In this document: positions 25,123 to 35,438 of the stretch, one piece after another
How the letters are laid out: each line of letters starts with the position of its first letter
Position numbering within the stretch: position 1 is the stretch's first letter
Assembly (NCBI RefSeq): GCF_002741055.1
Contig: NZ_CP016809.1
Location: 5,620,501 to 5,684,500 of the forward strand
Source of the DNA: Paenibacillus ihbetae
GTDB taxonomy: Bacteria; Bacillota; Bacilli; Paenibacillales; Paenibacillaceae
Reading direction: 5' to 3'
Length of the DNA: 64,000 nt
Program-made: the position numbers and the translations under genes
Notes under the pieces: model-generated
The model's database searches: none
Seen by the model: only the letters and a program-made list of their open reading frames with translations
Told to the model about the DNA's origin: nothing

Positions 25123-25152
25123 TTGACAGAGCGATCTCTAGAATGATATAGT
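25123..25152 (+). promoter_or_regulatory. SigA-type promoter of the type VII-like operon
   Basis: TTGACA (25123-25128), an 18-nt spacer and TATAGT (25147-25152). The start would fall near 25159. Confidence 0.7.
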
Positions 25153-25257: not shown

Positions 25258-25569
25258 ATGATTCTTACCGTAATCAGCGGGCGTAACGAAGAAGAATGGT
25301 TTGATATCGATGTTCCAGACGAATGCTCCATCGATCGGCTGGTCGAGCTGCTGGGCTTGCGTTTGTTTCATGGACCGTCGGGGGACGGCATTCAATATAT
25401 ATTGGAAGCGAAGTTTCCGGAAGGCTTGTGGTTCAAGGTCGAAGGCCGTTCAAGCCTTGTCGAGGCAGGATTGAGAGAGGGTTCTTACATCCGCCTGCAG
25501 CGGGCATATTCCACCACGACGGAGGAGGCACCCGTCTATGGCAGACGATCGTTGTTTCAAGAAGGCTGA
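25258..25569 (+). CDS. esaB: EsaB/YukD-like ubiquitin-fold protein of the type VII system
   Basis: A 103-residue protein from ATG 25258. MILTVISGRNEEEWFDIDVPDE forms the first beta hairpin, then SIDRLVELLGLRL a helix, and LREGSYIRLQRAY the last strand, which is the ubiquitin-like layout of YukD/EsaB. It directly precedes the EssC ATPase gene, as these two often lie close together in Bacillus and Staphylococcus ESS loci. The C-terminal tail (about 85-103) is extra. EsaB acts as a cytosolic accessory or regulatory protein in type VIIb secretion. The ribosome site (AGGG) is weak. Confidence 0.75.
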   Translation: MILTVISGRNEEEWFDIDVPDECSIDRLVELLGLRLFHGPSGDGIQYILEAKFPEGLWFKVEGRSSLVEAGLREGSYIRLQRAYSTTTEEAPVYGRRSLFQEG

Positions 25570-25680
25570 ATTTGGGTAAATAACCCCTTGGTTTTGGATG
25601 AAACAGCCCGGATCAAAAAAAACATACATACTTAATGAACCTACCAGACCAGATGCTCTCGATTAGGAGGAAAGTGACAT

Positions 25681-28600
25681 ATGAACGTGTTATATCAACG
25701 TTCGCCGCGTATTAAACCGGCTTTACCCGATGAAGACTTGGAGATATTGAGGCCGCCTTCCGAGCCCAGCAAGCCCTCCTTCTCCTTGATCTCGATTATC
25801 ATTCCGGTCATTATGACGGCTGCGACGATCGGATTTTATATTTATATGAATATGAGCGGCAAGGTTGGAAATCCCAACTTTATGATGTTCCAGATGCTGT
25901 CCATCTTTATGATGCTGACCTCGTATACGCTGCCGTTTTTTATGTATTTAGGCAACAAGAAGACGTATCAGAAGAAGCTTGAGGAGCGCAATCAGAAGTA
26001 TCGGGCCCAGCTGGAACTCCATCGGGAAGAGCTCAAGGAGCGGCAGAAGGAGCAGGTCGAGACGCTGTTCGATATTCACGGTGATCCCGGCGTGTGCTTT
26101 CATGTTGTGAAGAACCGCAGCAGCAATTTGTGGGAGCGTTCCCCGGAGGATTCGGATTTTCTCGAAGTTTGCGCCGGCAAAGGCCAAGTGCCGTTCCGCA
26201 TCCGGGTGAAGCCGCCCCGCGCCGACGGGTATGATAAAGACCCGCTGATTGAAGCTGCCGAAAATTTGGCCTCTGAATTTCAAACCGTTGAGGATGCTTC
26301 GATCGCGCTTCCGTTATTCGAGTCCAAGGTGATCGGAATCGTAGGAGGCAGAGACCAGGTCTTGAACATGCTGAGGGTTCTTATGGCGCAGACAGCGGTA
26401 AGGCACTCTCCTGACGAAGTAAAGATTGCGGCTTTCTATGAAGAGAAGGAGTCCACCGAGTGGCAATGGCTGCGGTGGCTTCCGCATACGTGGGACGATG
26501 ACCGGTCCACCCGTTATTTGGCGGACCGCCGGAGCAGCGCTCACCAGCTTGCCGACGATATCTTCACGCAGCTGCATCGCCGCAAGAACAATCGCTCCGA
26601 ATACGGGAACAAGTCCATCGTGACTCCGGCCTATGTGGTCATATTGTCCGGCACTCACCTTATCGAGGAAGAGCCGCTTTTACCGTTGCTTATGGAGGAT
26701 GGCGAAGCCGTCGATGCGGTAACGATCGTGCTGTCCGACCGCAAGGAGAGCCTTCCGATGCACTGCCAGCTGATTGTGGAGGTGGGCCGGGACCAGGCGG
26801 ACTATACGGTAAAGAAACCGGACGGCACGGTGTCCCGTCAAGCCTTCCAGCCTCATCACATCAGCCGTGAGCAGATGGAAGCCATGGCGCGCTATATGGC
26901 GCCAATCCGGCTCAAACGCTCCTCCGCATCGGATATTCCGAGCATCCTGCCTCTGTTTGAAATGATGGACATTCAACGCATCGGGGATTTCGACGTTTAC
27001 CGTCGCTGGCAGCAAAACCGTTACCCGGACACGCTGCCTGTTCCGATGGGCGTCCGCGCCGGAGGCAAGAAGATTAATTTGAATCTTCATGATAAAATAG
27101 AGCGTCAGGGACATGGGCCCCACGGATTGATCGCCGGAACGACCGGGTCGGGGAAGAGCGAGGTCATTCAATCGATCGTCGCTTCGCTGGCTGCCGAATT
27201 CCATCCGCATGATCTTGCGTTCATGCTGATCGACTACAAGGGCGGGGGCATGTCCAATACGTTTGTGAATCTGCCGCATGTCGTGGGCACGATTACGAAT
27301 CTGGACAACAATCTGATTGAGCGGGCGAAGGTATCGCTCAAGGCCGAGCTCGTGCGGCGGCAGAAAATATTGAATGATGCTGGCAATCTCCAGCATATCG
27401 ACGAGTATTATAAACATCTCCGCAATCGTGCCGGCGAACCGCTGCCGCATTTGGTCATCATTATCGACGAATTCGCGCAATTAAAGAAGGATCAGCCCGA
27501 ATTCATGGACGAGCTGATCAGCATCGCCGCAATCGGGCGGACGCTCGGCGTCCATCTGATTCTAGCGACCCAGAAGCCGGCAGGCGTCGTGGATGACAAG
27601 ATCTGGAGTAACTCCCGGTTCCGCATCTGTCTTCGCGTTCAAAGCGAGGGAGACAGCCGGGATATGCTGAAAATTCCGAATGCTGCCTGGATCAACAAGC
27701 CGGGGCGGGGGTATTTCCAGGTCGGCAGCGACGAGGTGTTCGAGGAGATGCAATTCGCTTGGAGCGGTGCTCCTTATGTAGAGGAGATGGACTCCGATGG
27801 CGCGATCGTGATCCGTGAGGTGCGTCTGAACGGAAAAACCGAACCGCTGCTTGCTTCCGAACATAGCGTTGGAGCTCAACAGGAGCAGCCGAAGCAGCTT
27901 CAAGTGTTTATCGACCATTTGGCCCAAGTGGCCGAGCGGCAAGGAATAGAACGGCTGCAGGGCCCGTGGCTGCCGCCTCTTCCTGAGACTCTGGACCTCG
28001 ATACCGTCATGGCTGATGTGGAGGAGCCGATGCAGGGCGCAGCGATTGGCCGCAGACCGCTTGAGTCTTATGTAGGAACGGTGGACGATTTACCTAATCA
28101 ATGCCAGCGTCCGCTGGTCCTTAATTTAGAGCAGGGGCACTGGGCAGTATACGGCATGCCTGGACTCGGGAAGACGACCTTCATTCAGACGATGCTGATG
28201 TCGCTGGCCCGGCGCTATACGCCTGACGATTGGCATGGGTACGTTGTTGACATGGGCCGTATGATGCGTGACTTTACGCGCCTGCCGCATGTCGGTGCTG
28301 TCATGGCGGCAGAGGAAGAGGACCGGATTAAACGCCTGTTCCGCTATCTTGCGAAAATCGCGGGTCAGCGCAAGGATATGATCGCGGAAGCCGGGGTGAA
28401 GACCGTCGCTGCATACCGCAGAGCGTCATCCGAGCCCGTGCCTCAGCTGCTCATCGTCATCGACGGGTATTTGAATTTCCGCAATACGTATACGGAAGAG
28501 AACGATATGCTCGAGTATTTGCTGCGTGAAGGTGGCAGTCTCGGCATTACGTTCGTCATTACGGCAAATCGGGTGTCGGATATGTTCGAAAAGGTGCGAA

Positions 28601-29673
28601 GCAATATTGCTCATGCGGTTTCTTACGAATTGGCCGATCCTGCCGACTACTACTATGCGGTAGGTCGGCCGACGAAGGCGCCGAGCCAGCTGCCGCCGGG
28701 CAGGGGCCTCGTCAAAGGCCAGGTGCCGCCGCTAGAGTTCCAGACGGCACTGCCGGCTCCGGGAGAAGAGGAAGGAGATCGCTCTTCGGCGCTCCGCCAG
28801 CTCATCCGCGACATCGGGAATTCCTGGCAAGGCGAGGAAGCTCCTCCGATCGAATCCCTGCCGGAGCAGATCCCGCTCCATCAGCTGCTGAAGGTGGACG
28901 AGCCGTTCGAACGCGGCGGGATGAATCCGTATGAGGTTCCGGTCGGGGTTGCAACGGACGACTTGTCGCCGTTTAGGATCAATCTCGCGGACGGGCCGCA
29001 TTTCATCGTTGCAAGTCCGATGGAGGGCGGCAAGACGTCATTCCTGCTGAGCTGGATGCTCGCGCTTGCCTATTACACGCCACCGGAGGCTCTTGAAATA
29101 TATACCGTGGATACACGGTATGGAAGCAGCGGCCTGAGCCGGCTGAATCATCTGCCGCATGTCCGCGGTCATGCTGAGAATGAAGAGGAGCTGGCCTCCG
29201 TGATCTCCGGCCTGCATGAGCGGATTCAGGGCAGGTCCAAAGACGGCGAGGATCCGGCCATCGTGCTTCTGATCGACGATGCCGACGTGCTGAGCAAGCA
29301 GCTAAACGATTTTACTTTGAAGGATCAGTTGTCAGCCATTGTAAGGCAAGGGCGGGACCGGAACGTCCATGTTATCGTTGCCGGCGTGCCTGCTGACTTT
29401 CCGACATACGGCGTCGACTGGTTTACTGATATAAAAGCGGCGCAAAATGGATTTTTATTCGGGACCCTGGATTCGAACGATTTATCCTTCTTTAGAATTC
29501 CTTTTTCCGAATCCGCGAATAGTCCTGGAGGACTAAAGATTCTTCCTCCGGGACAAGGGTACTATGTAAAACGCAAATTTTCCAGAATAAAAGGCGCAAT
29601 TCCGTTTCATGAAGAGTGGAATGCCCAGAGATGGGTCACAGAAATTCGCGACCGATGGCATGTTGTAGTTTGA
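25681..29673 (+). CDS. essC: EssC/YukBA-type FtsK/SpoIIIE ATPase, type VII secretion motor
   Basis: A 1330-residue membrane ATPase. Two membrane segments (about 37-56 and 62-88) are followed by a coiled region and three FtsK-like ATPase modules. D1 has Walker A GTTGSGKSE (486-494) and Walker B LVIIIDEF. D2 has GMPGLGKTT (825-833) with LLIVIDGY. D3 has a degenerate SPMEGGKTS (1112-1120) with VLLIDDAD. EssC threads WXG100-type substrates through the membrane. Unlike S. aureus EssC there are no N-terminal FHA domains; the membrane segments come almost at once. GGAGG at 25666-25670 precedes the ATG. It follows esaB by 111 nt. Confidence 0.92.
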   Translation: MNVLYQRSPRIKPALPDEDLEILRPPSEPSKPSFSLISIIIPVIMTAATIGFYIYMNMSGKVGNPNFMMFQMLSIFMMLTSYTLPFFMYLGNKKTYQKKLEERNQKYRAQLELHREELKERQKEQVETLFDIHGDPGVCFHVVKNRSSNLWERSPEDSDFLEVCAGKGQVPFRIRVKPPRADGYDKDPLIEAAENLASEFQTVEDASIALPLFESKVIGIVGGRDQVLNMLRVLMAQTAVRHSPDEVKIAAFYEEKESTEWQWLRWLPHTWDDDRSTRYLADRRSSAHQLADDIFTQLHRRKNNRSEYGNKSIVTPAYVVILSGTHLIEEEPLLPLLMEDGEAVDAVTIVLSDRKESLPMHCQLIVEVGRDQADYTVKKPDGTVSRQAFQPHHISREQMEAMARYMAPIRLKRSSASDIPSILPLFEMMDIQRIGDFDVYRRWQQNRYPDTLPVPMGVRAGGKKINLNLHDKIERQGHGPHGLIAGTTGSGKSEVIQSIVASLAAEFHPHDLAFMLIDYKGGGMSNTFVNLPHVVGTITNLDNNLIERAKVSLKAELVRRQKILNDAGNLQHIDEYYKHLRNRAGEPLPHLVIIIDEFAQLKKDQPEFMDELISIAAIGRTLGVHLILATQKPAGVVDDKIWSNSRFRICLRVQSEGDSRDMLKIPNAAWINKPGRGYFQVGSDEVFEEMQFAWSGAPYVEEMDSDGAIVIREVRLNGKTEPLLASEHSVGAQQEQPKQLQVFIDHLAQVAERQGIERLQGPWLPPLPETLDLDTVMADVEEPMQGAAIGRRPLESYVGTVDDLPNQCQRPLVLNLEQGHWAVYGMPGLGKTTFIQTMLMSLARRYTPDDWHGYVVDMGRMMRDFTRLPHVGAVMAAEEEDRIKRLFRYLAKIAGQRKDMIAEAGVKTVAAYRRASSEPVPQLLIVIDGYLNFRNTYTEENDMLEYLLREGGSLGITFVITANRVSDMFEKVRSNIAHAVSYELADPADYYYAVGRPTKAPSQLPPGRGLVKGQVPPLEFQTALPAPGEEEGDRSSALRQLIRDIGNSWQGEEAPPIESLPEQIPLHQLLKVDEPFERGGMNPYEVPVGVATDDLSPFRINLADGPHFIVASPMEGGKTSFLLSWMLALAYYTPPEALEIYTVDTRYGSSGLSRLNHLPHVRGHAENEEELASVISGLHERIQGRSKDGEDPAIVLLIDDADVLSKQLNDFTLKDQLSAIVRQGRDRNVHVIVAGVPADFPTYGVDWFTDIKAAQNGFLFGTLDSNDLSFFRIPFSESANSPGGLKILPPGQGYYVKRKFSRIKGAIPFHEEWNAQRWVTEIRDRWHVVV

Positions 29674-29689
29674 GGGGAGGTGGCTCATA

Positions 29690-30496
29690 ATGTTGACAAT
29701 TCATGCTTCCAAACAAGAAACAATCACTCTGAACGACAAGGAATTCTTCTTCTTGGCTGGAATTATCGGATCGGACAGATTGCTTGGCGTTGAGGATCCC
29801 TTTGTCGGGTACTTAACCGAAGAAATCGCAGTGGAATGGGAGAATGCCAAGCAATCGCTGTTAAGCAAGCAATACTTGATACAAGAAGAGGGCGGGGAAT
29901 TGTCAATTCCTCCTGAAGTATTCTCGAGAGTTGCTATTGCGGGACTTGCGGAGCGTGCCTGCTGGTTGAAATACGAAAATCAGGGTAAGGCATTTGAAGG
30001 ATATCTGCATGTCACTGACGAACGAGTAATACAAGTGTGCAGAAGCAGTGAAGACGACCGGTGTTATATGCTTAGCGAGCTCGGGACGATTGACCAGGCT
30101 TGCGATCAGTTGGTCGAGGATCTTGCGCTCAGCGATCACAACTGGGGGGATATCCCCGCACTCCTGTTAAGCCGTAAGGAGTTCGGCGACATCTACACCT
30201 CGGCCTCCTTGCACAGCGGGGAAGAAATCGGTGATCGGCTGGCCCGGTTAACCGATGATGCCGAAGGATCGATAGCACTGGCCAAATGCATGAAGAACAA
30301 AATTTCCTCGGGGGAGCTCCAGCTGTCGATTTGGAACGGAACCAGCTGGGAAAGTCAAAATGCAGCGTTTATTGTGAATGAGTCCATGAATTGGCTTCTG
30401 CGAATGAGCCTGGAGGGAGACCAGGACTGGCTAACCGCAGCGCCAGCAACCAAAGAGCAGTTTCGTCATATGCTTCTCATGTGGCTGAAACAGTAA
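29690..30496 (+). CDS. Unrecognised 268-residue protein of the type VII-like operon
   Basis: A soluble acidic protein starting 16 nt after essC behind GGGGAGGTGG. No signal peptide or membrane segment. It opens LTIHASKQETITLNDKEFFFLAGIIG and contains a mixed alpha/beta middle (GYLHVTDERVIQVC) and a C-terminal helical part (ESMNWLLRMSL). Position and size recall EspG chaperones of ESX systems, which hold substrates in the cytosol, but I see no sequence signature to prove this. Tight spacing to essC and the following gene argues for a dedicated secretion role. Confidence 0.7.
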   Translation: MLTIHASKQETITLNDKEFFFLAGIIGSDRLLGVEDPFVGYLTEEIAVEWENAKQSLLSKQYLIQEEGGELSIPPEVFSRVAIAGLAERACWLKYENQGKAFEGYLHVTDERVIQVCRSSEDDRCYMLSELGTIDQACDQLVEDLALSDHNWGDIPALLLSRKEFGDIYTSASLHSGEEIGDRLARLTDDAEGSIALAKCMKNKISSGELQLSIWNGTSWESQNAAFIVNESMNWLLRMSLEGDQDWLTAAPATKEQFRHMLLMWLKQ

Positions 30497-30523
30497 CAGA
30501 GCCCGTATGAAAGGTGAGGACCA

Positions 30524-31030
30524 ATGCGTATTTCTGTCGAGCCGGAATCACTCCGGACGTTAAGCCGTCAGCTGCAGCTCAGCGGCGAAGAATACTTTGC
30601 GATGACGAGAAGATTGGGTCAGGCGATGAATTCGCTGATATGGGAAACTTCTCTCAAAGCGGCGGTTATCGATGAGTGGCAGTCTGCCCAGAAGCTGGGG
30701 GAGCATCTGGGAGCTCTTCTAGTTCAGCTGGGCAAGCATCTTCAAAACAAAGCGGATCAATTTCAAGAAACGGATCATCAGTACCACAGCATTTTGGAGC
30801 ATGCGATCATCACGGTGTCCCCTACGGCGCTGTTCTCGGCTTCCGGTATGGAAGACCGCGTTTCCATACTGCCCGAGCATAGCTCGGCCTCGGTCATTTC
30901 GAATCCAAGCTCGGTGGCAGCTGCTGTCGGGATGACGAGCGAGGAGAAGGGGAATTCGGTGAAGCAGGCCGCACTGGCAGGACAAAGCTGGACCTTTACG
31001 GATCCTTCTTCCCTCAGCATAGCCAATTGA
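30524..31030 (+). CDS. WXG100-like helical protein with a Ser/Ala-rich tail
   Basis: A 168-residue protein. Residues 1-95 are predicted as two long helices separated by a turn with Trp (AMNSLIWETSLKAAVIDEW), like WXG100 proteins, although the Gly of the W-x-G turn is not present. Residues 96-168 are Ser/Ala/Val-rich and probably flexible. AAGGTGAGG precedes the ATG. Between an essC-linked gene and a true WXG100 gene, it could be a secreted partner, a chaperone or a substrate. The Esx-like reading is from predicted shape only. Confidence 0.6.
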   Translation: MRISVEPESLRTLSRQLQLSGEEYFAMTRRLGQAMNSLIWETSLKAAVIDEWQSAQKLGEHLGALLVQLGKHLQNKADQFQETDHQYHSILEHAIITVSPTALFSASGMEDRVSILPEHSSASVISNPSSVAAAVGMTSEEKGNSVKQAALAGQSWTFTDPSSLSIAN

Positions 31031-31113
31031 TTTCCAAAACTTAGGACGAACGGATAAGATTAGGTTTCAACTTGGGACGTATAGGGTAACTGGAAATTAG
31101 GTCTGAGGACATT

Positions 31114-31142
31114 TTGATAATCCAAGGCCCGTAGGCTAAGAT
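31114..31142 (+). promoter_or_regulatory. SigA-type promoter of the WXG100 gene
   Basis: TTGATA (31114-31119), a 17-nt spacer and TAAGAT (31137-31142), 42 nt before the start codon. Confidence 0.7.
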
Positions 31143-31184
31143 GTCAAGTGTCACCAGAAATTGAATTTCAAGGAGGTTACATAC

Positions 31185-31460
31185 ATGGCAGGTCGTATTT
31201 TAATTACGCCAGAACAGGTAGAACAAGTAGCAAATCAATTTAAGCAGAGCGGTGAGCAAAGTCAGCAAATCGTTAACAGTCTGACCCAATCCATTAACGG
31301 AATGGAAGGACAATGGGACGGTATGACTAAGCAGCGCTTCTTCCAAGAGTTCCAGGAAGCAAGCCGTCTGATGCAATCCTTTGTTCAGACACTTGACAGC
31401 ATCAGCAACGAGCTGAAGGCGATCGCTCAGAAATTCCGTATGGCGGACGAATCTCGTTAA
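31185..31460 (+). CDS. esxA: WXG100 protein (EsxA/YukE-like)
   Basis: A 91-residue protein from ATG 31185 with AGGAGG at 31171-31176. Two helices are joined by the diagnostic turn WDG (44-46). The C-terminus holds F84-x3-D88, a form of the Y/F-x3-D/E export signal. These proteins dimerise and are the core exported substrates of type VII systems. It has its own promoter and terminator inside the operon, suggesting it is made in larger amounts than the machinery. The longer start at 31161 overlaps the ribosome site and is rejected. Confidence 0.9.
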   Translation: MAGRILITPEQVEQVANQFKQSGEQSQQIVNSLTQSINGMEGQWDGMTKQRFFQEFQEASRLMQSFVQTLDSISNELKAIAQKFRMADESR

Positions 31461-31506
31461 TCCATACAAGGATCTTTTGTTTTATAATAGATTCATAGGG
31501 CAGATA

Positions 31507-31534
31507 AACCGGGTGCCAGACAACCCGGTTTTCT
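31507..31534 (+). terminator. Terminator after esxA
   Basis: AACCGGGT (31507-31514) pairs with ACCCGGTT (31523-31530), followed by TTTC. Partial read-through into the kinase-like gene is plausible, since no strong promoter is seen between them. Confidence 0.7.
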
Positions 31535-31612
31535 TGCAATCCAGGATCTTTATATAGTGAGAGCCCGCCCCAAGAAGGCGGGTGATGGTGTTTAAGAGAG
31601 GGTGATTGTTTC

Positions 31613-33724
31613 GTGACTTTTCAGCCTAACCCTGGCGACGGAATCGTAATCAATGGTACGGCATATACGGTAGGACAGCATCCTGCCGCCCCTGGCGTAG
31701 CCTATGCCCAAGCAGGGAGGCAGGGGATTGTATACCAGCTGATTCCTGTTGACGGTGAGATTTATCAAGCCAAAGCGCTCAAGGTATTTTTTCCTAAATT
31801 CAGAATTCCCGCAATGGTATATCAATCCGAGCATCTGGGCAGCTATCAAGAAATGCCGGGTTTGCGGGTATGCAACCGTGAGGTGCTCACTCCCGAAAGA
31901 AACGGAGATTTGATAGCAGAATACCCTGATTTGCTGTATGCGGTCATTATGCCCTGGGTCCATGGGTGCACCTGGTTCGATGTGATCAGCGATCAGCGGA
32001 ATATCGGGCGTTCTGAAAGTCTTATGCTTGCCAAAGCGCTAGCCGCCATCGGCTCAAGCATGGAGCAGCGCGGATTGGCGCATTGTGATCTGTCTGCGCC
32101 TAATGTCATGCTTCCGTTTTTTTCGGAAGTGAAGCTGCCGGAAGGAGCGGCCGCCGTAGAGCTTGTGGACGTGGAGCAAATGTACAGCCCCAAGATGGAC
32201 CGTCCGGACGTCCTGCTTGCAGGGTCTCCGGGGTATGCGGCTCACCGGACGGTGCACAGCGGTTTGTGGAGCGCATATGCGGACCGATTCGCTGGCGCTG
32301 TCATTATCGCGGAGATGCTGGGATGGAGCGATCCCGCGATCGTCAACCGTGCCTGGGGCGAAAGCTACTTCGACCAGCATGAGATGCAGACGCCGTGTGA
32401 GCGGTATTTCCTGTTGAAAAAATCGCTTGGCCAACGCTGGGGGTCCCGTATCGCCGACCTGTTCGGCAGAGCATGGGACAGCCAGGACCTAAGCAGCTGC
32501 CCGACGTTCGGCGAGTGGCTGATCGCTTTGTCCTCCGTAAGCGAAGAGGAAGTGCCGGAAGACCCGCCGGCTGCTGCGGCAGTAGCGGTTGCGGATGCGG
32601 ATACTCAGGCAAAGCCTGCCGAGTCGTCTTCCGAAAGTCCTGCAGAAGTGCCTGCCGAATTGATGGAATCGCTGGGCATCCAGCCAGGCACCCGGGAAGT
32701 TAACGATAACGTGGTTTCCCGGCTGTTTCATCAGGCCCGTGACTTGGAGGCTGCGGGCAATTTGTCCGGAGCGCTGGAAATATTCCGTTCGGCCTATCAT
32801 TTTGTTAAGAAAGACAGCCCGCTTGAGGTTGAGCTTGCCGCAGCGATCGCAGGTCTGGAGAAGGAGCTGTTTCCTCCGGAGGACCCTGCCGATAAAGGAC
32901 TAAAGGCGCTGCTGACCTCCCGCAAGTTCATGATCTCCGCGGCTGCGGCGATCGTCATCCTGGCCGGGTCGGCCTTCACGGTTAACCAGATCCTGGCGGA
33001 GAAGGCGGAGAGCAAGCAGCTTGAGGCTCAGCGTCTTGCCGAGCAGCAGGCCAAGGAACAGGAGGAAGCTGCACGCAAGCAGCAGGAAGAGGCGGCGAAA
33101 GCCGAGGAAGCACGGAAGGCCGAGGAAGCCAAGAAGGCTGAGGAGGCGAAAAAAGCCGCGGAAGAAGCGAAGAAGGCCGAAGAAGCCAAGAAGGCTGCAG
33201 AAGCGGCGAAGAAGGCGGAGGAAGCCCGCAAAGCCAAGGAAAGGGCGGAGCTTCAGGCGAAATATGACAGGCAGGCTAAGTATGAGGCCTATCTCGCATC
33301 GCTGGAAGAGAAGAAAAAGAAGCAGGAGCTTCAGGAAAAATACGATAAACAGGCGAAATATGAAGCCTATCTTGCCCAGCTGGAAGAGAAGAAGAAGAAA
33401 GCCGCGCAGGAGGAGGCCGCTGCCAAAGCGGCTGCCAAGGCTGAGGCGGAACGGAAGGCTAGAGAGCAAGCTGCAGCTGCGCGGGCGGAACAGCTGCAGA
33501 AGCAGCGCTCCCAGAATATCGTGGAGCTGGTGGCGCTGTACAATAAAGCGTATAATGCGCAGGTCGCGGGTAATAAGGACCGTGCCAAAAATTTCGCCCG
33601 TCAATTCATGACCCTGTACAACAAGGATGCTTCTTATAACCGGACGGTTGGCAGTATGATCAGCCGTCGCAACAATTTGAACAAGTTCTTAGAGGACGAC
33701 AGCTTCTGGATACCTAAGCTGTAG
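31613..33724 (+). CDS. EssB-like membrane protein with an apparently intact kinase domain
   Basis: A 703-residue protein from GTG 31613 (GGGTGAT upstream). Residues about 30-310 are a protein-kinase-like domain with the ATP-binding Lys57 (ALKVF), catalytic loop HCDLSAPN (157-164, Asp159 and Asn164) and metal-binding DVE (186-188). A helical repeat region (about 370-425), one membrane segment (about 439-460) and a long Ala/Lys/Glu coiled coil (about 463-632) follow, with a 26-residue unit repeated twice (AKYDRQAKYEAYL and EKYDKQAKYEAYL). The C-terminal ~70 residues are globular. Kinase-fold, membrane segment, external part is the layout of EssB/YukC, which is a pseudokinase; here the catalytic residues remain. 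Confidence 0.75.
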   Translation: MTFQPNPGDGIVINGTAYTVGQHPAAPGVAYAQAGRQGIVYQLIPVDGEIYQAKALKVFFPKFRIPAMVYQSEHLGSYQEMPGLRVCNREVLTPERNGDLIAEYPDLLYAVIMPWVHGCTWFDVISDQRNIGRSESLMLAKALAAIGSSMEQRGLAHCDLSAPNVMLPFFSEVKLPEGAAAVELVDVEQMYSPKMDRPDVLLAGSPGYAAHRTVHSGLWSAYADRFAGAVIIAEMLGWSDPAIVNRAWGESYFDQHEMQTPCERYFLLKKSLGQRWGSRIADLFGRAWDSQDLSSCPTFGEWLIALSSVSEEEVPEDPPAAAAVAVADADTQAKPAESSSESPAEVPAELMESLGIQPGTREVNDNVVSRLFHQARDLEAAGNLSGALEIFRSAYHFVKKDSPLEVELAAAIAGLEKELFPPEDPADKGLKALLTSRKFMISAAAAIVILAGSAFTVNQILAEKAESKQLEAQRLAEQQAKEQEEAARKQQEEAAKAEEARKAEEAKKAEEAKKAAEEAKKAEEAKKAAEAAKKAEEARKAKERAELQAKYDRQAKYEAYLASLEEKKKKQELQEKYDKQAKYEAYLAQLEEKKKKAAQEEAAAKAAAKAEAERKAREQAAAARAEQLQKQRSQNIVELVALYNKAYNAQVAGNKDRAKNFARQFMTLYNKDASYNRTVGSMISRRNNLNKFLEDDSFWIPKL

Positions 33725-33764
33725 GAACATTAACTGAAGAATTAGCAGGGGTGAAGGTTTCGCG

Positions 33765-34517
33765 ATGAACTATACCATACAAGCATCACAGCGCACGCCC
33801 GCGCTCATTATATACCTGATTGATATCAGCGCATCGATGAATATGCTCATGGAGGACAAGAGGCGGATCGACGTCGTTTATGAAGCTTTGTCTCTAGCCA
33901 TCCGGCAGATGGTATTCCGTTCGACGAAGGGGAACCGGCTTACACCGCGTTACCGGATTGCGATCCTGGCATACAGCGATGATGTATACGATTTGCTGGG
34001 CGGCATTAAAGGCATCGATGAAATTGCGGCCATAGGCTCCCTGCCGGATTTGACGCCGAAGCGGTTCTCCGATTCGGCAAAGGCCTTTTCGCAAGCAGAG
34101 AAAATCTTGCAGATGGAAATTCCGAATATGCAGGATTGCCCTGCCCCGCTTGTGTGCCATATGACCGACGGCGTTTCAACGGGCGAGGATCCGGAGCCGA
34201 TCGCCCGCCGGATCATGAGCATGAGCGTTCCGGACGGGAATGTCCTTGTGGAGAATATCTTTATCTCCGACCATCTGATGAGCCAGCCGATAGCGGAGCC
34301 GCGCCGCTGGAAGGGCATACTGCCAGACACTCCGCTCGAGGACGAGCACGCCCGCAAGCTGAAGATGATGTCTTCGGTGCTTCCTGAGAGCTATCGGGAA
34401 ATGCTGGTGGAGGCGGACTATCAGCTTAGCCCGGGGGCTTTAATGATGCTTCCCGGAACATGCTCGGAGCTGGTGTCCATCGGATTCCAGATGTCGGCAG
34501 CGACACCGGTAAGGTAA
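33765..34517 (+). CDS. VWA (TerY-like) domain protein
   Basis: A 250-residue von Willebrand factor A protein with a complete metal-ion-dependent adhesion site: DISAS (20-24), a Thr in the LTPKRFSDS loop, and MTDG (133-136, Asp135). No signal peptide, so it is cytosolic. TerY-type VWA proteins are typically encoded beside a PP2C phosphatase and a protein kinase, which is exactly the arrangement here. It may form a metal-dependent bridge in a phospho-signalling complex. It starts 40 nt after the kinase-like gene. Confidence 0.85.
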   Translation: MNYTIQASQRTPALIIYLIDISASMNMLMEDKRRIDVVYEALSLAIRQMVFRSTKGNRLTPRYRIAILAYSDDVYDLLGGIKGIDEIAAIGSLPDLTPKRFSDSAKAFSQAEKILQMEIPNMQDCPAPLVCHMTDGVSTGEDPEPIARRIMSMSVPDGNVLVENIFISDHLMSQPIAEPRRWKGILPDTPLEDEHARKLKMMSSVLPESYREMLVEADYQLSPGALMMLPGTCSELVSIGFQMSAATPVR

Positions 34518-34522
34518 CGGGC

Positions 34523-35362
34523 ATGAAGCGGTCATTTGCAAACGCGGAAGCTTGGAGCGGACGGAAGAAAAGGGCGCGGTCAACCTCCTATTATTATGAG
34601 AGCAAACAGACCGGAGAGGAGCCCTTGACCCGGGTAGAGGAACAGTTCATTTGCCGGTACGCTTACGGCAGAGCTGCGGAGTCGGTATTGATGTCGGAGA
34701 AGAGTCAGGATTTCATGGCGTTCGCGATCGATCGGGACGTTTGCCGCTTCGTGCTGTGCGACGGAGTCGGCTTAAGCTACCGTGGCGATGTGGCTTCCCA
34801 GCTTCTCGGACGGGGGCTGATGGGATGGCTTTATTCGCAGGATGAGCTGTCGCAGGCTTCCTTGGAGCGCAAGCTGCTTGAGCTGACGGAGGAGGCGGAG
34901 CGGGAGATGCGCAGCCTGACCGTCGATGCCAATGCCCCCAAGCTGCTGCGAGAGGTGCTGGAGGAGAAGCAGCGAATGGGAAGCGAAGCGATGTACGTGT
35001 GCGGACGAATCGAGCTGCCGACCCGATTCAGGCGAAAAGGCAGGCTGTGGCTGGCATGGCAGGGAGATTCCCGCTTGCGGCTGTGGCAAGGGCAGCATGA
35101 AATTTCGCCTATATTCGGCGACCGGTTTCGTACGGCTGAGCGCTGGTCATCCAAAAACGGGCCGGTAGGCGGCAAGCCCCATGTATACCAAGGCCGGTTG
35201 GAGCATGAATCAGGCTATCGCCTGCAAATGTACAGCGATGGTCTGAATGACCTGGACCCGATGAAGGAGCCGATTCCCGATGACCAGGTCCAAGTGCTTA
35301 TGAACGCTTTGCATACAGGCGGACTGGAGGATGACGCTTCGTTTCTGGAAATTATGTGGTAA
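34523..35362 (+). CDS. PP2C-type Ser/Thr phosphatase
   Basis: A 279-residue protein from ATG 34523, 5 nt after the VWA stop. PP2C motifs are present in order: FVLCDGVG (Asp80, Gly81), a GDSR segment (WLAWQGDSRLRLW), YSDGL (237-241) and DDASF near the end. The first 40 residues are basic and disordered. It probably reverses phosphorylation by the kinase-like membrane protein. The longer frame from 34460 overlaps the VWA gene and has no ribosome site; AAGGT at 34511 is modest. Confidence 0.82.
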   Translation: MKRSFANAEAWSGRKKRARSTSYYYESKQTGEEPLTRVEEQFICRYAYGRAAESVLMSEKSQDFMAFAIDRDVCRFVLCDGVGLSYRGDVASQLLGRGLMGWLYSQDELSQASLERKLLELTEEAEREMRSLTVDANAPKLLREVLEEKQRMGSEAMYVCGRIELPTRFRRKGRLWLAWQGDSRLRLWQGQHEISPIFGDRFRTAERWSSKNGPVGGKPHVYQGRLEHESGYRLQMYSDGLNDLDPMKEPIPDDQVQVLMNALHTGGLEDDASFLEIMW

Positions 35363-35387: not shown

Positions 35388-35438
35388 GGGCTTGTCTTCG
35401 AAGTCATTGAAGTAGACTTTGGAGACAGCCCTTTTTTT
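35388..35438 (+). terminator. Terminator of the type VII-like operon
   Basis: GGGC/GCCC and TGTC/GACA pairing with an inner AAGTC/GACTT stem, followed by seven Ts (35432-35438). Confidence 0.75.

Follow-up and report, generated by a model that had tools for sequence, protein, structure and literature searches.

A type VII secretion operon of subtype T7SSc in Paenibacillus ihbetae, with its kinase, VWA and phosphatase genes and a further conserved WXG100-like gene

The stretch of DNA considered here (the window, 64,000 nucleotides) covers positions 5620501-5684500 of the 6.59-Mb genome of Paenibacillus ihbetae, a single contig, and contains an operon of about 10 kb whose eight open reading frames (ORFs), all on the + strand at 25258-35362, follow one another in the order tscB, tscC, tscG, gene X, tscA, tscD, tscE, tscF. 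The gene names are those of T7SSc, a subtype of the type VII secretion system (T7SS) with components TscA-TscG, for which Paenibacillus is named by Garrett, Higginson and Palmer (2024, PMC11217815). The closest named relative for this locus is Paenibacillus lactis, whose TscD is 96% identical.

A promoter-like site precedes the genes at 25123..25152 (+), with TTGACA-18-TATAGT and a TG before the -10 (pattern scan, 11/12 matches); the scan gave 12 such sites in the region where 7.0 were expected, and a match alone is no proof of function. The first gene, tscB (25258..25569, +, 103 amino acids, aa), is EsaB/YukD-like by position, being an ORF of that size with a conserved place in the 53 collinear loci described below; the initial annotation had started it (as esaB) at 25258, and we prefer this to the longer ORF from 25225 since conservation begins there, at Met12 of the longer ORF. 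It is followed by tscC (25681..29673, +, 1330 aa), encoding a membrane ATPase of the EssC/EccC type as judged from TIGR03928, three FtsK/SpoIIIE stretches and its position in a tree, and by tscG (29690..30496, +, 268 aa), whose product is predicted from an AlphaFold2 model and its PDB matches to be a chaperone of the EspG fold. Gene X (30524..31030, +, 168 aa) encodes the short form of a WXG100-like hairpin protein, recognised by invariant residues and a TIGR03930 match below cut-off, whereas TscA (31185..31460, +, 91 aa) is a WXG100 protein over both cut-offs (PF06013, 71.2 bits; TIGR03930, 78.4 bits), with aaggagg at 31170 resembling a ribosome-binding site ahead of its gene. Between tscA and tscD the sequence forms a hairpin with a T-rich tail (31506..31535, +; 31500-31545 folds at -20.1 kcal/mol), a possible attenuator or terminator, so expression of the operon may be uneven; it could permit a surplus of tscA over the signalling genes. 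These are tscD (31613..33724, +, 703 aa; PF00069, residues and hydropathy), for a Ser/Thr kinase domain, a predicted membrane helix and a long helical C-terminal part, tscE (33765..34517, +, 250 aa; PF13519 below cut-off, motif conservation), for a VWA protein with DxSxS, and tscF (34523..35362, +, 279 aa from the ATG at 34523, the longest ORF running from 34460; PF13672), for a phosphatase of the PP2C/PPM type. An intrinsic terminator closes the operon at 35388..35438 (+; -26.5 kcal/mol, z -5.5 against 200 shuffles, then 7 T), which the pattern scan did not list because its loop is 9 nucleotides long. All genes named in the initial annotation are present on the + strand at the coordinates it gave, with the promoter-like site before them and this strong terminator after them; of its two "unknown proteins", one models with the EspG fold (TscG) and the other is a divergent WXG100-like protein (gene X).

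The operon is T7SSc, a system published in 2024, and adds one more member to it, so that the notion of a new kind of system was not borne out. Six of the seven published components were recognised by profile, residues or fold, and TscB by place only: it had no Pfam match at E<=1 and no NCBIfam match, and its size, position and conservation are those of the EsaB/YukD-like place. TscC scored 1221 bits with TIGR03928 (cut-off 778), showed no FHA domain among the matches listed (25 of 35 Pfam families), and formed one clade with the ATPases of other loci of the same gene content (Shimodaira-Hasegawa-like approximate likelihood ratio test, SH-aLRT, 100) in a tree whose rows did not include published T7SSc sequences. 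The likeness to the published description (PMC11217815) comprises the same seven components, TscB being a putative one, with an ATPase lacking FHA, an EspG-like TscG, a kinase with a conserved active site, a vWA protein and a PPM phosphatase; as expected for T7SSc the cluster has one WXG100 TscA, X being an additional WXG100-like gene below cut-off. The difference is the conserved gene X itself, which stands outside the seven components in the accessible text of that article. By RefSeq sequence count T7SSc ranks next after T7SSa and T7SSb in the same 2024 survey. Our literature search found no user of the name T7SSc besides PMC11217815, and nothing closer among the papers listed for type VII secretion combined with TerY, PP2C, VWA or phosphatase.

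With T7SSb (Ess/Yuk: EsxA, EsaB, EssC, EssA, EssB, EsaA) the operon shares an EssC-type ATPase, one WXG100 gene over cut-off and a small gene in the EsaB-like position, but it is without EssB and without EssA or EsaA over cut-off, no FHA domain was found on TscC, and the kinase residues are intact. The complete genome holds a single EssC over cut-off. Across it, EssB (YukC/EssB) gave no match at E<=10, EssA none over cut-off (two EssA-like matches had E 0.13 and 0.88), and EsaA none over its cut-off of 122 (three EsaA-like matches had 38.9-94.6 bits). All three EsaA-like proteins score higher as YhgE/Pip, where two pass the cut-offs and the third does not, and EsaA encoded elsewhere in the genome was dropped as a candidate for this reason. 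No T7SSb orthologues were found elsewhere in the genome, in a search that did not include the T7SSa parts EccB/D/E. The initial annotation had proposed that the classical EsaA/EssA parts may be replaced or encoded elsewhere; the complete-genome search gives no support to the second option, while in favour of the first the classical parts seem to be replaced in this genome, because there is no EssB, no EssA over cut-off, and the EsaA-like proteins look like YhgE/Pip.

Two further systems resemble the operon in part. T7SSe likewise has an ATPase, a WXG100 protein, a kinase and a PPM phosphatase, but it carries FHA on the ATPase and has a DUF6382-FHA protein, TseJ, and neither domain was found in the eight proteins here. 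The threonine phosphorylation pathway of the type VI secretion system (PpkA, PppA, Fha1) also places a kinase, a PP2C phosphatase and a VWA domain near a secretion machine, but its VWA lies in an extracellular domain of PpkA (PMC3224232), whereas TscE has no membrane helix by hydropathy, and no FHA protein was found here.

Conservation of the operon was followed in 55 loci, all Paenibacillus by title, which were recruited by TscD, so that each contains tscD at least in part. All eight genes were matched in 53 of them, collinear on one strand in 53/53; the remaining two (L062, L063) are cut by contig ends. In L059 and L064 tscC and tscD look frame-broken, and L018 is without a tscD start. Because all 53 fully covered relatives are collinear on one strand, the operon order is far beyond chance, and the possibility that the kinase and VWA genes are chance neighbours is ruled out by the same count. 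Median identity to the window (53 loci, best segment) was 88% for TscE, 81% for TscA, 69% for TscC, 68% for TscB, 56% for TscD, 52% for both TscG and TscF, and 37% for gene X. The VWA protein TscE exceeds the ATPase in conservation and may thus touch several partners.

Gene X is as constant in place as the named components. It is present in 54 of the 55 loci (the 55th is cut by a contig end) and collinear in 53/53 fully covered Paenibacillus loci, and it starts 27 bases after the tscG stop in the window; across the 53 loci, 29-41 bases separate it from the final tscG codon before it. TIGR03930 scored 22.7 bits (E 8.5e-5, below cut-off), and W40, F80 and D84, the last two forming FxxxD, are invariant in 16/16 sequences. 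TscG, modelled from 20 sequences, gave a predicted local distance difference test (pLDDT) value of 89.2 and a predicted template modelling (pTM) score of 0.84, and 18/18 PDB matches of the model at E<=0.001 were EspG1, EspG3 or EspG5; the single match of its sequence to a solved chain (E 0.46) is meaningless. We infer that TscG may serve X, and that the X of the window would be a shortened effector or a targeting partner.

An effector origin is suggested by the second form of the gene. The long X, found in 8/54 loci, has 391-400 aa and a hydrophobic, glycine-rich C-terminal half, and a DUF4176-like ORF is present in 8/8 long-X loci and in 0/46 short-X loci; in 5/8 long-X loci there is also an ORF of 222-242 aa, judged by eye to resemble a membrane protein. 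The sole long X run on Pfam, that of L020, matched EspC at 27.6 bits (cut-off 23.5) beside a DUF4176 neighbour, with a glycine-zipper match of 17.3 bits, below the cut-off of 25. Glycine-zipper toxins of type VII systems are known, for instance TelE and EsxX. The P. ihbetae genome itself has a satellite unit at 1229154-1232439 (- strand; L172:6655-9940), in which a second TscG-like gene (110 bits) is followed by a 360-aa relative of X with a WXG head and a hydrophobic C-terminal region, a 258-aa ORF resembling a membrane protein, DUF4176 and a WXG100-like gene; the proteins of this unit are likely clients of the window's secretion system. There is some chance, short of even, that gene X is instead a structural partner of TscA (a second subunit, EsxB-like) and not the remnant of an effector. 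This would agree with the short form of 168-215 aa in 46/54 loci, its W-x-[FY]-x-[DG]-P tail (46/46) and the retained FxxxD; the relatives of 360-400 aa in the eight loci and the satellite, with their hydrophobic glycine-rich C-termini and DUF4176 or DUF4176-like neighbours, argue the other way, the glycine-zipper match of L020 being below cut-off.

Three more WXG100-headed proteins in the same genome are candidate substrates (L173:6697-8187, 496 aa; L174:7506-8600, 364 aa; L175:6742-7665, 307 aa). That of L174 has a sub-threshold glycine-zipper match, and several small ORFs in a row after that of L173 may be immunity genes. In another genome (G633, L176:11131-13005) G, X and A stand together, with no ATPase or triad in the stretch. 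Among 16 genomes taken across the layouts described below, a full TscG occurs in four, all of which have an X-type match beside TscA as well, and the other 12 have no TscG and no X-type match except TscA; the genomes are related, so this co-occurrence is no test.

The three signalling proteins matched their Pfam families weakly, namely TscD with PF00069 (21.3 bits, cut-off 31.7, E 2e-4), TscE with PF13519 (21.7 bits, cut-off 27, E 3e-4) and TscF with PF13672 (19.2 bits, cut-off 24, E 9e-4), but their active-site residues are conserved among relatives. The counts span the layout groups and cover rows having a letter at the position, with the limit that some rows of families f12 and f23, here and in the trees, are overlapping stretches of one genome and not all independent. 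In TscD (86 rows, six layout groups) K57 is kept in 82/82, D159 in 83/84, N164 in 83/83 and D186 in 85/85; K54, considered as the ATP lysine, varies, and K57 is the conserved one. TscF keeps D84, D101, G102, D203, D260, D291 and D292 (longest-ORF numbering) throughout (84 rows, five groups), as TscE does DxSxS and D135 (92 rows, all layouts); T97 was rejected as the third residue of the metal ion-dependent adhesion site of TscE, as it varies between layouts and an S/T at position 102 fits better by eye. TscD has one predicted membrane helix near residue 439 (hydropathy). Its model was weak (pLDDT 67.9, pTM 0.35), leaving kinship with EssB by fold neither proven nor excluded: the 50 matches listed were all kinase domains, including a pseudokinase (TYK2 JH2), and none was named EssB. 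Neither TscD nor TscE had a sequence match to a solved chain at E<=0.01.

The linkage of TscE to EssC was followed in genomes of the class and of the family. The TscE profile was positive in 28/398 Bacilli genomes, and an EssC search of the same 398 genomes found 89 at E<=1e-100, including all 28 with TscE. TscE lies 572-4412 bases from EssC in 31/31 TscE places of this class sample. In a family sample, 156/394 genomes matched TscE at E<=1e-5, of which 13 are weak matches (E 2e-12 to 2e-6), perhaps to other VWA proteins, and among further TscE stretches of the family the ATPase is present in 18/20. By these counts the triad is linked with type VII loci. Other EssC loci, without TscE, occur in eight genomes of the same genus or family (L158-L165), with ATPases of 1294-1334 aa, which by their length would be too short for FHA; seven of these loci group in a single ATPase clade, have similar genes around them and are perhaps, at a guess, the published T7SSg/h beside Tad genes.

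We compared 78 stretches, whose ORFs were labelled by profiles derived for the most part from the 55 loci. Layout I (T7SSc) has the order B C G X A D E F in Paenibacillus, X E F G B C A D in family f23 (X and G in 5/5, A and D in 4/4 extended stretches) and E F B C A D in family f12, where TscG was found in 0/4 genomes. In layout II (11 loci) C, A and E precede a small ORF, a short D of 452-481 aa and G; next come one or two small WXG100-like genes and a large ORF whose head is WXG-like (13-34 bits, weak at the low end), and TscF is absent from the stretch. One layout II genome, G553, has a shortened TscF on another contig, where a TscG-like gene adjoins it (L177:7776-9511) in what looks like a remnant. 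Layout IV (L117, L121) has C A E F D, and its stretches show neither G nor X.

Layout III combines an FHA-bearing ATPase (1500-1598 aa) with a YukD-like gene, two WXG100-like genes, a kinase-VWA protein, TscF and a TscD-type kinase. The fusion protein (536-574 aa) has a canonical kinase in its first half and a TscE-type VWA in its second. The sample comprised 12 stretches (L072, L102-L112) from genomes G367, G583, G649, G648, G414, G405, G416, G731, G714, G413, G666 and G402. Kinase and VWA are in one ORF in 11 of them by profile and in two ORFs in L112, and Pfam finds both domains in both fusions run; such single ORFs tie the VWA to the kinase. The ATPase was found in 10 stretches, TscF in 10 and TscD in 9; 8 stretches hold the ATPase, the fusion and TscF at once, 6 of them with TscD as well. 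The FHA domain of L072 was found by Pfam and those of the others were recognised in the alignment; GR, SxxH and NG, which we take to be the phosphothreonine-binding residues, are kept in 10/10. The phospho-reader that one would expect is present in layout III, whereas none was found in T7SSc.

In the ATPase tree layout III joins two T7SSe-like comparison loci (L166, L167; named so by gene content, having a DUF6382-FHA protein, and both from one family) at SH-aLRT 100, apart from T7SSc. In a tree trimmed of FHA (36 rows) layout III and T7SSe form one side of a branch with support 100, a grouping noticed before the test, and forcing layout III with T7SSc costs 366 log-likelihood units (approximately unbiased test, p-AU 4.6e-102). 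Layout III nevertheless scores 393-448 bits with the T7SSc profile of TscD and 184-245 bits with that of TscF, where the kinases and phosphatases of L166 and L167 give nothing or 13 bits (TscF: no match in L166, 13 bits in L167). The simplest reading of a T7SSe-side ATPase with TscD and TscF of the T7SSc type is that the triad has been combined with two ATPase lineages, that is, a probable module swap. Layout III does not come out as one group in the TscE tree (it is split 8 and 4 at weak forks) or in the TscF tree, so that the joining may have happened more than once. Placement of the T7SSe-like phosphatases in the TscF tree was dropped because their branch is too long, and only profile scores were used. 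TseF is called an orthologue of TscF in PMC11217815, an orthology not shown by L166 and L167, two loci of one family.

From these comparisons of sequence the kinase/VWA/PP2C triad looks portable between type VII machines. Layout III is undescribed in the accessible text of PMC11217815. We would give even chances to the joint reading that the triad is a portable type VII control cassette on at least two ATPase lineages, that layout III is an undescribed subtype, and that gene X is an effector within the T7SSc operon, chaperoned by TscG and shortened in most strains including this one; the two layout III stretches out of 12 without an ATPase weaken the portable-cassette part.

For the operon as a whole, the best explanation, which we consider probable, is a T7SSc secretion locus in which TscD, TscE and TscF would phospho-gate export; of this, the sequence analysis shows which genes there are, how they are ordered and conserved, the catalytic residues, the EspG fold as a prediction, the lack of EssB and of EsaA/EssA above threshold, and the close TscE-EssC linkage. 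The membrane ATPase TscC, of FtsK/EssC type, would export TscA and WXG-headed clients including the product of gene X, which the EspG-like TscG would keep export-ready. TscD would take EssB's place, with a cytoplasmic kinase domain, one membrane helix and a helical ectodomain (a predicted topology), and the presumably cytoplasmic TscE may link it to the machine. TscD would then phosphorylate a component of the machine and TscF would dephosphorylate it, and the phosphorylation state may gate the assembly or activity of export. A phospho-switch of secretion, as the initial annotation supposed, is plausible and already in print, since control by phosphorylation was suggested as possible for some type VII subtypes in PMC11217815.

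Several observations weigh against such a switch. No FHA domain or other phospho-reader was found in the operon proteins among the Pfam matches listed, and a reader on TscC was dropped as a candidate when its FHA domain was not found. TscF is absent in 4/5 genomes where layout II is the sole layout seen, which speaks against a necessary switch. In six genomes of family f18 (L152-L157) the ATPases fall within the T7SSc clade, with a small TscB-like ORF (26-58 bits) in 5/6 and a TscA-like ORF in 5/6 as neighbours, but genome searches found TscE, TscF and TscD absent in 6/6, and TscG was not found either; the triad was either lost there or replaced by something unrelated, and this too counts against a necessary switch. 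Two of the 20 family stretches with TscE, L105 and L110, have no ATPase within about 20 kb. The sole exception at D159 of TscD is an ORF fragment of L064, one of the records with frame-broken-looking tscC and tscD.

It is possible, if rather unlikely, that TscD is mainly a structural substitute for EssB, and that kinase and phosphatase tune secretion slightly or act on envelope stress without switching it. According to PMC11217815 TscD has the topology of EssB but a conserved kinase site, EssB itself being called a pseudokinase, and the kinase residues kept in six layout groups, with phosphatase residues kept in the five that have TscF, argue against a purely structural role. The persistence of the f18 ATPases without D/E/F, and of layout II without TscF in four genomes out of five, would fit it well. 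That the triad is an independent stress-signalling cassette of the TerY-P kind merely adjoining secretion genes is very unlikely, since the absence of D/E/F in f18 and the kinase-VWA fusion of L110, alone in its stretch without ATPase, TscF or TscD, are outweighed by a TscE within 4.4 kb of EssC in every class-sample place, the ATPase in 18 of 20 family stretches, the operon order kept in all 53 loci and the reappearance of the triad with a second ATPase type. Triads of VWA, PP2C and kinase do occur in other loci, as in the TerY-P family, and the operon has the three identical domain types in a row; on the other hand TscE had no NCBIfam match at E<=0.001, in searches not aimed at TerY or ter profiles.

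Phospho-gated export through T7SSc remains the explanation that we prefer. Our analysis extends the published T7SSc by gene X, the tests for absent parts, the set of layouts and a probable module swap. Between them, gene X and the long X supply a candidate client and effector, in a system whose clients have so far been predicted from neighbouring genes. As the kinase is intact here, in contrast to the pseudokinase of T7SSb, phospho-control of type VII export is directly testable in Paenibacillus, and layout III would allow it to be tested where an FHA reader is built in.

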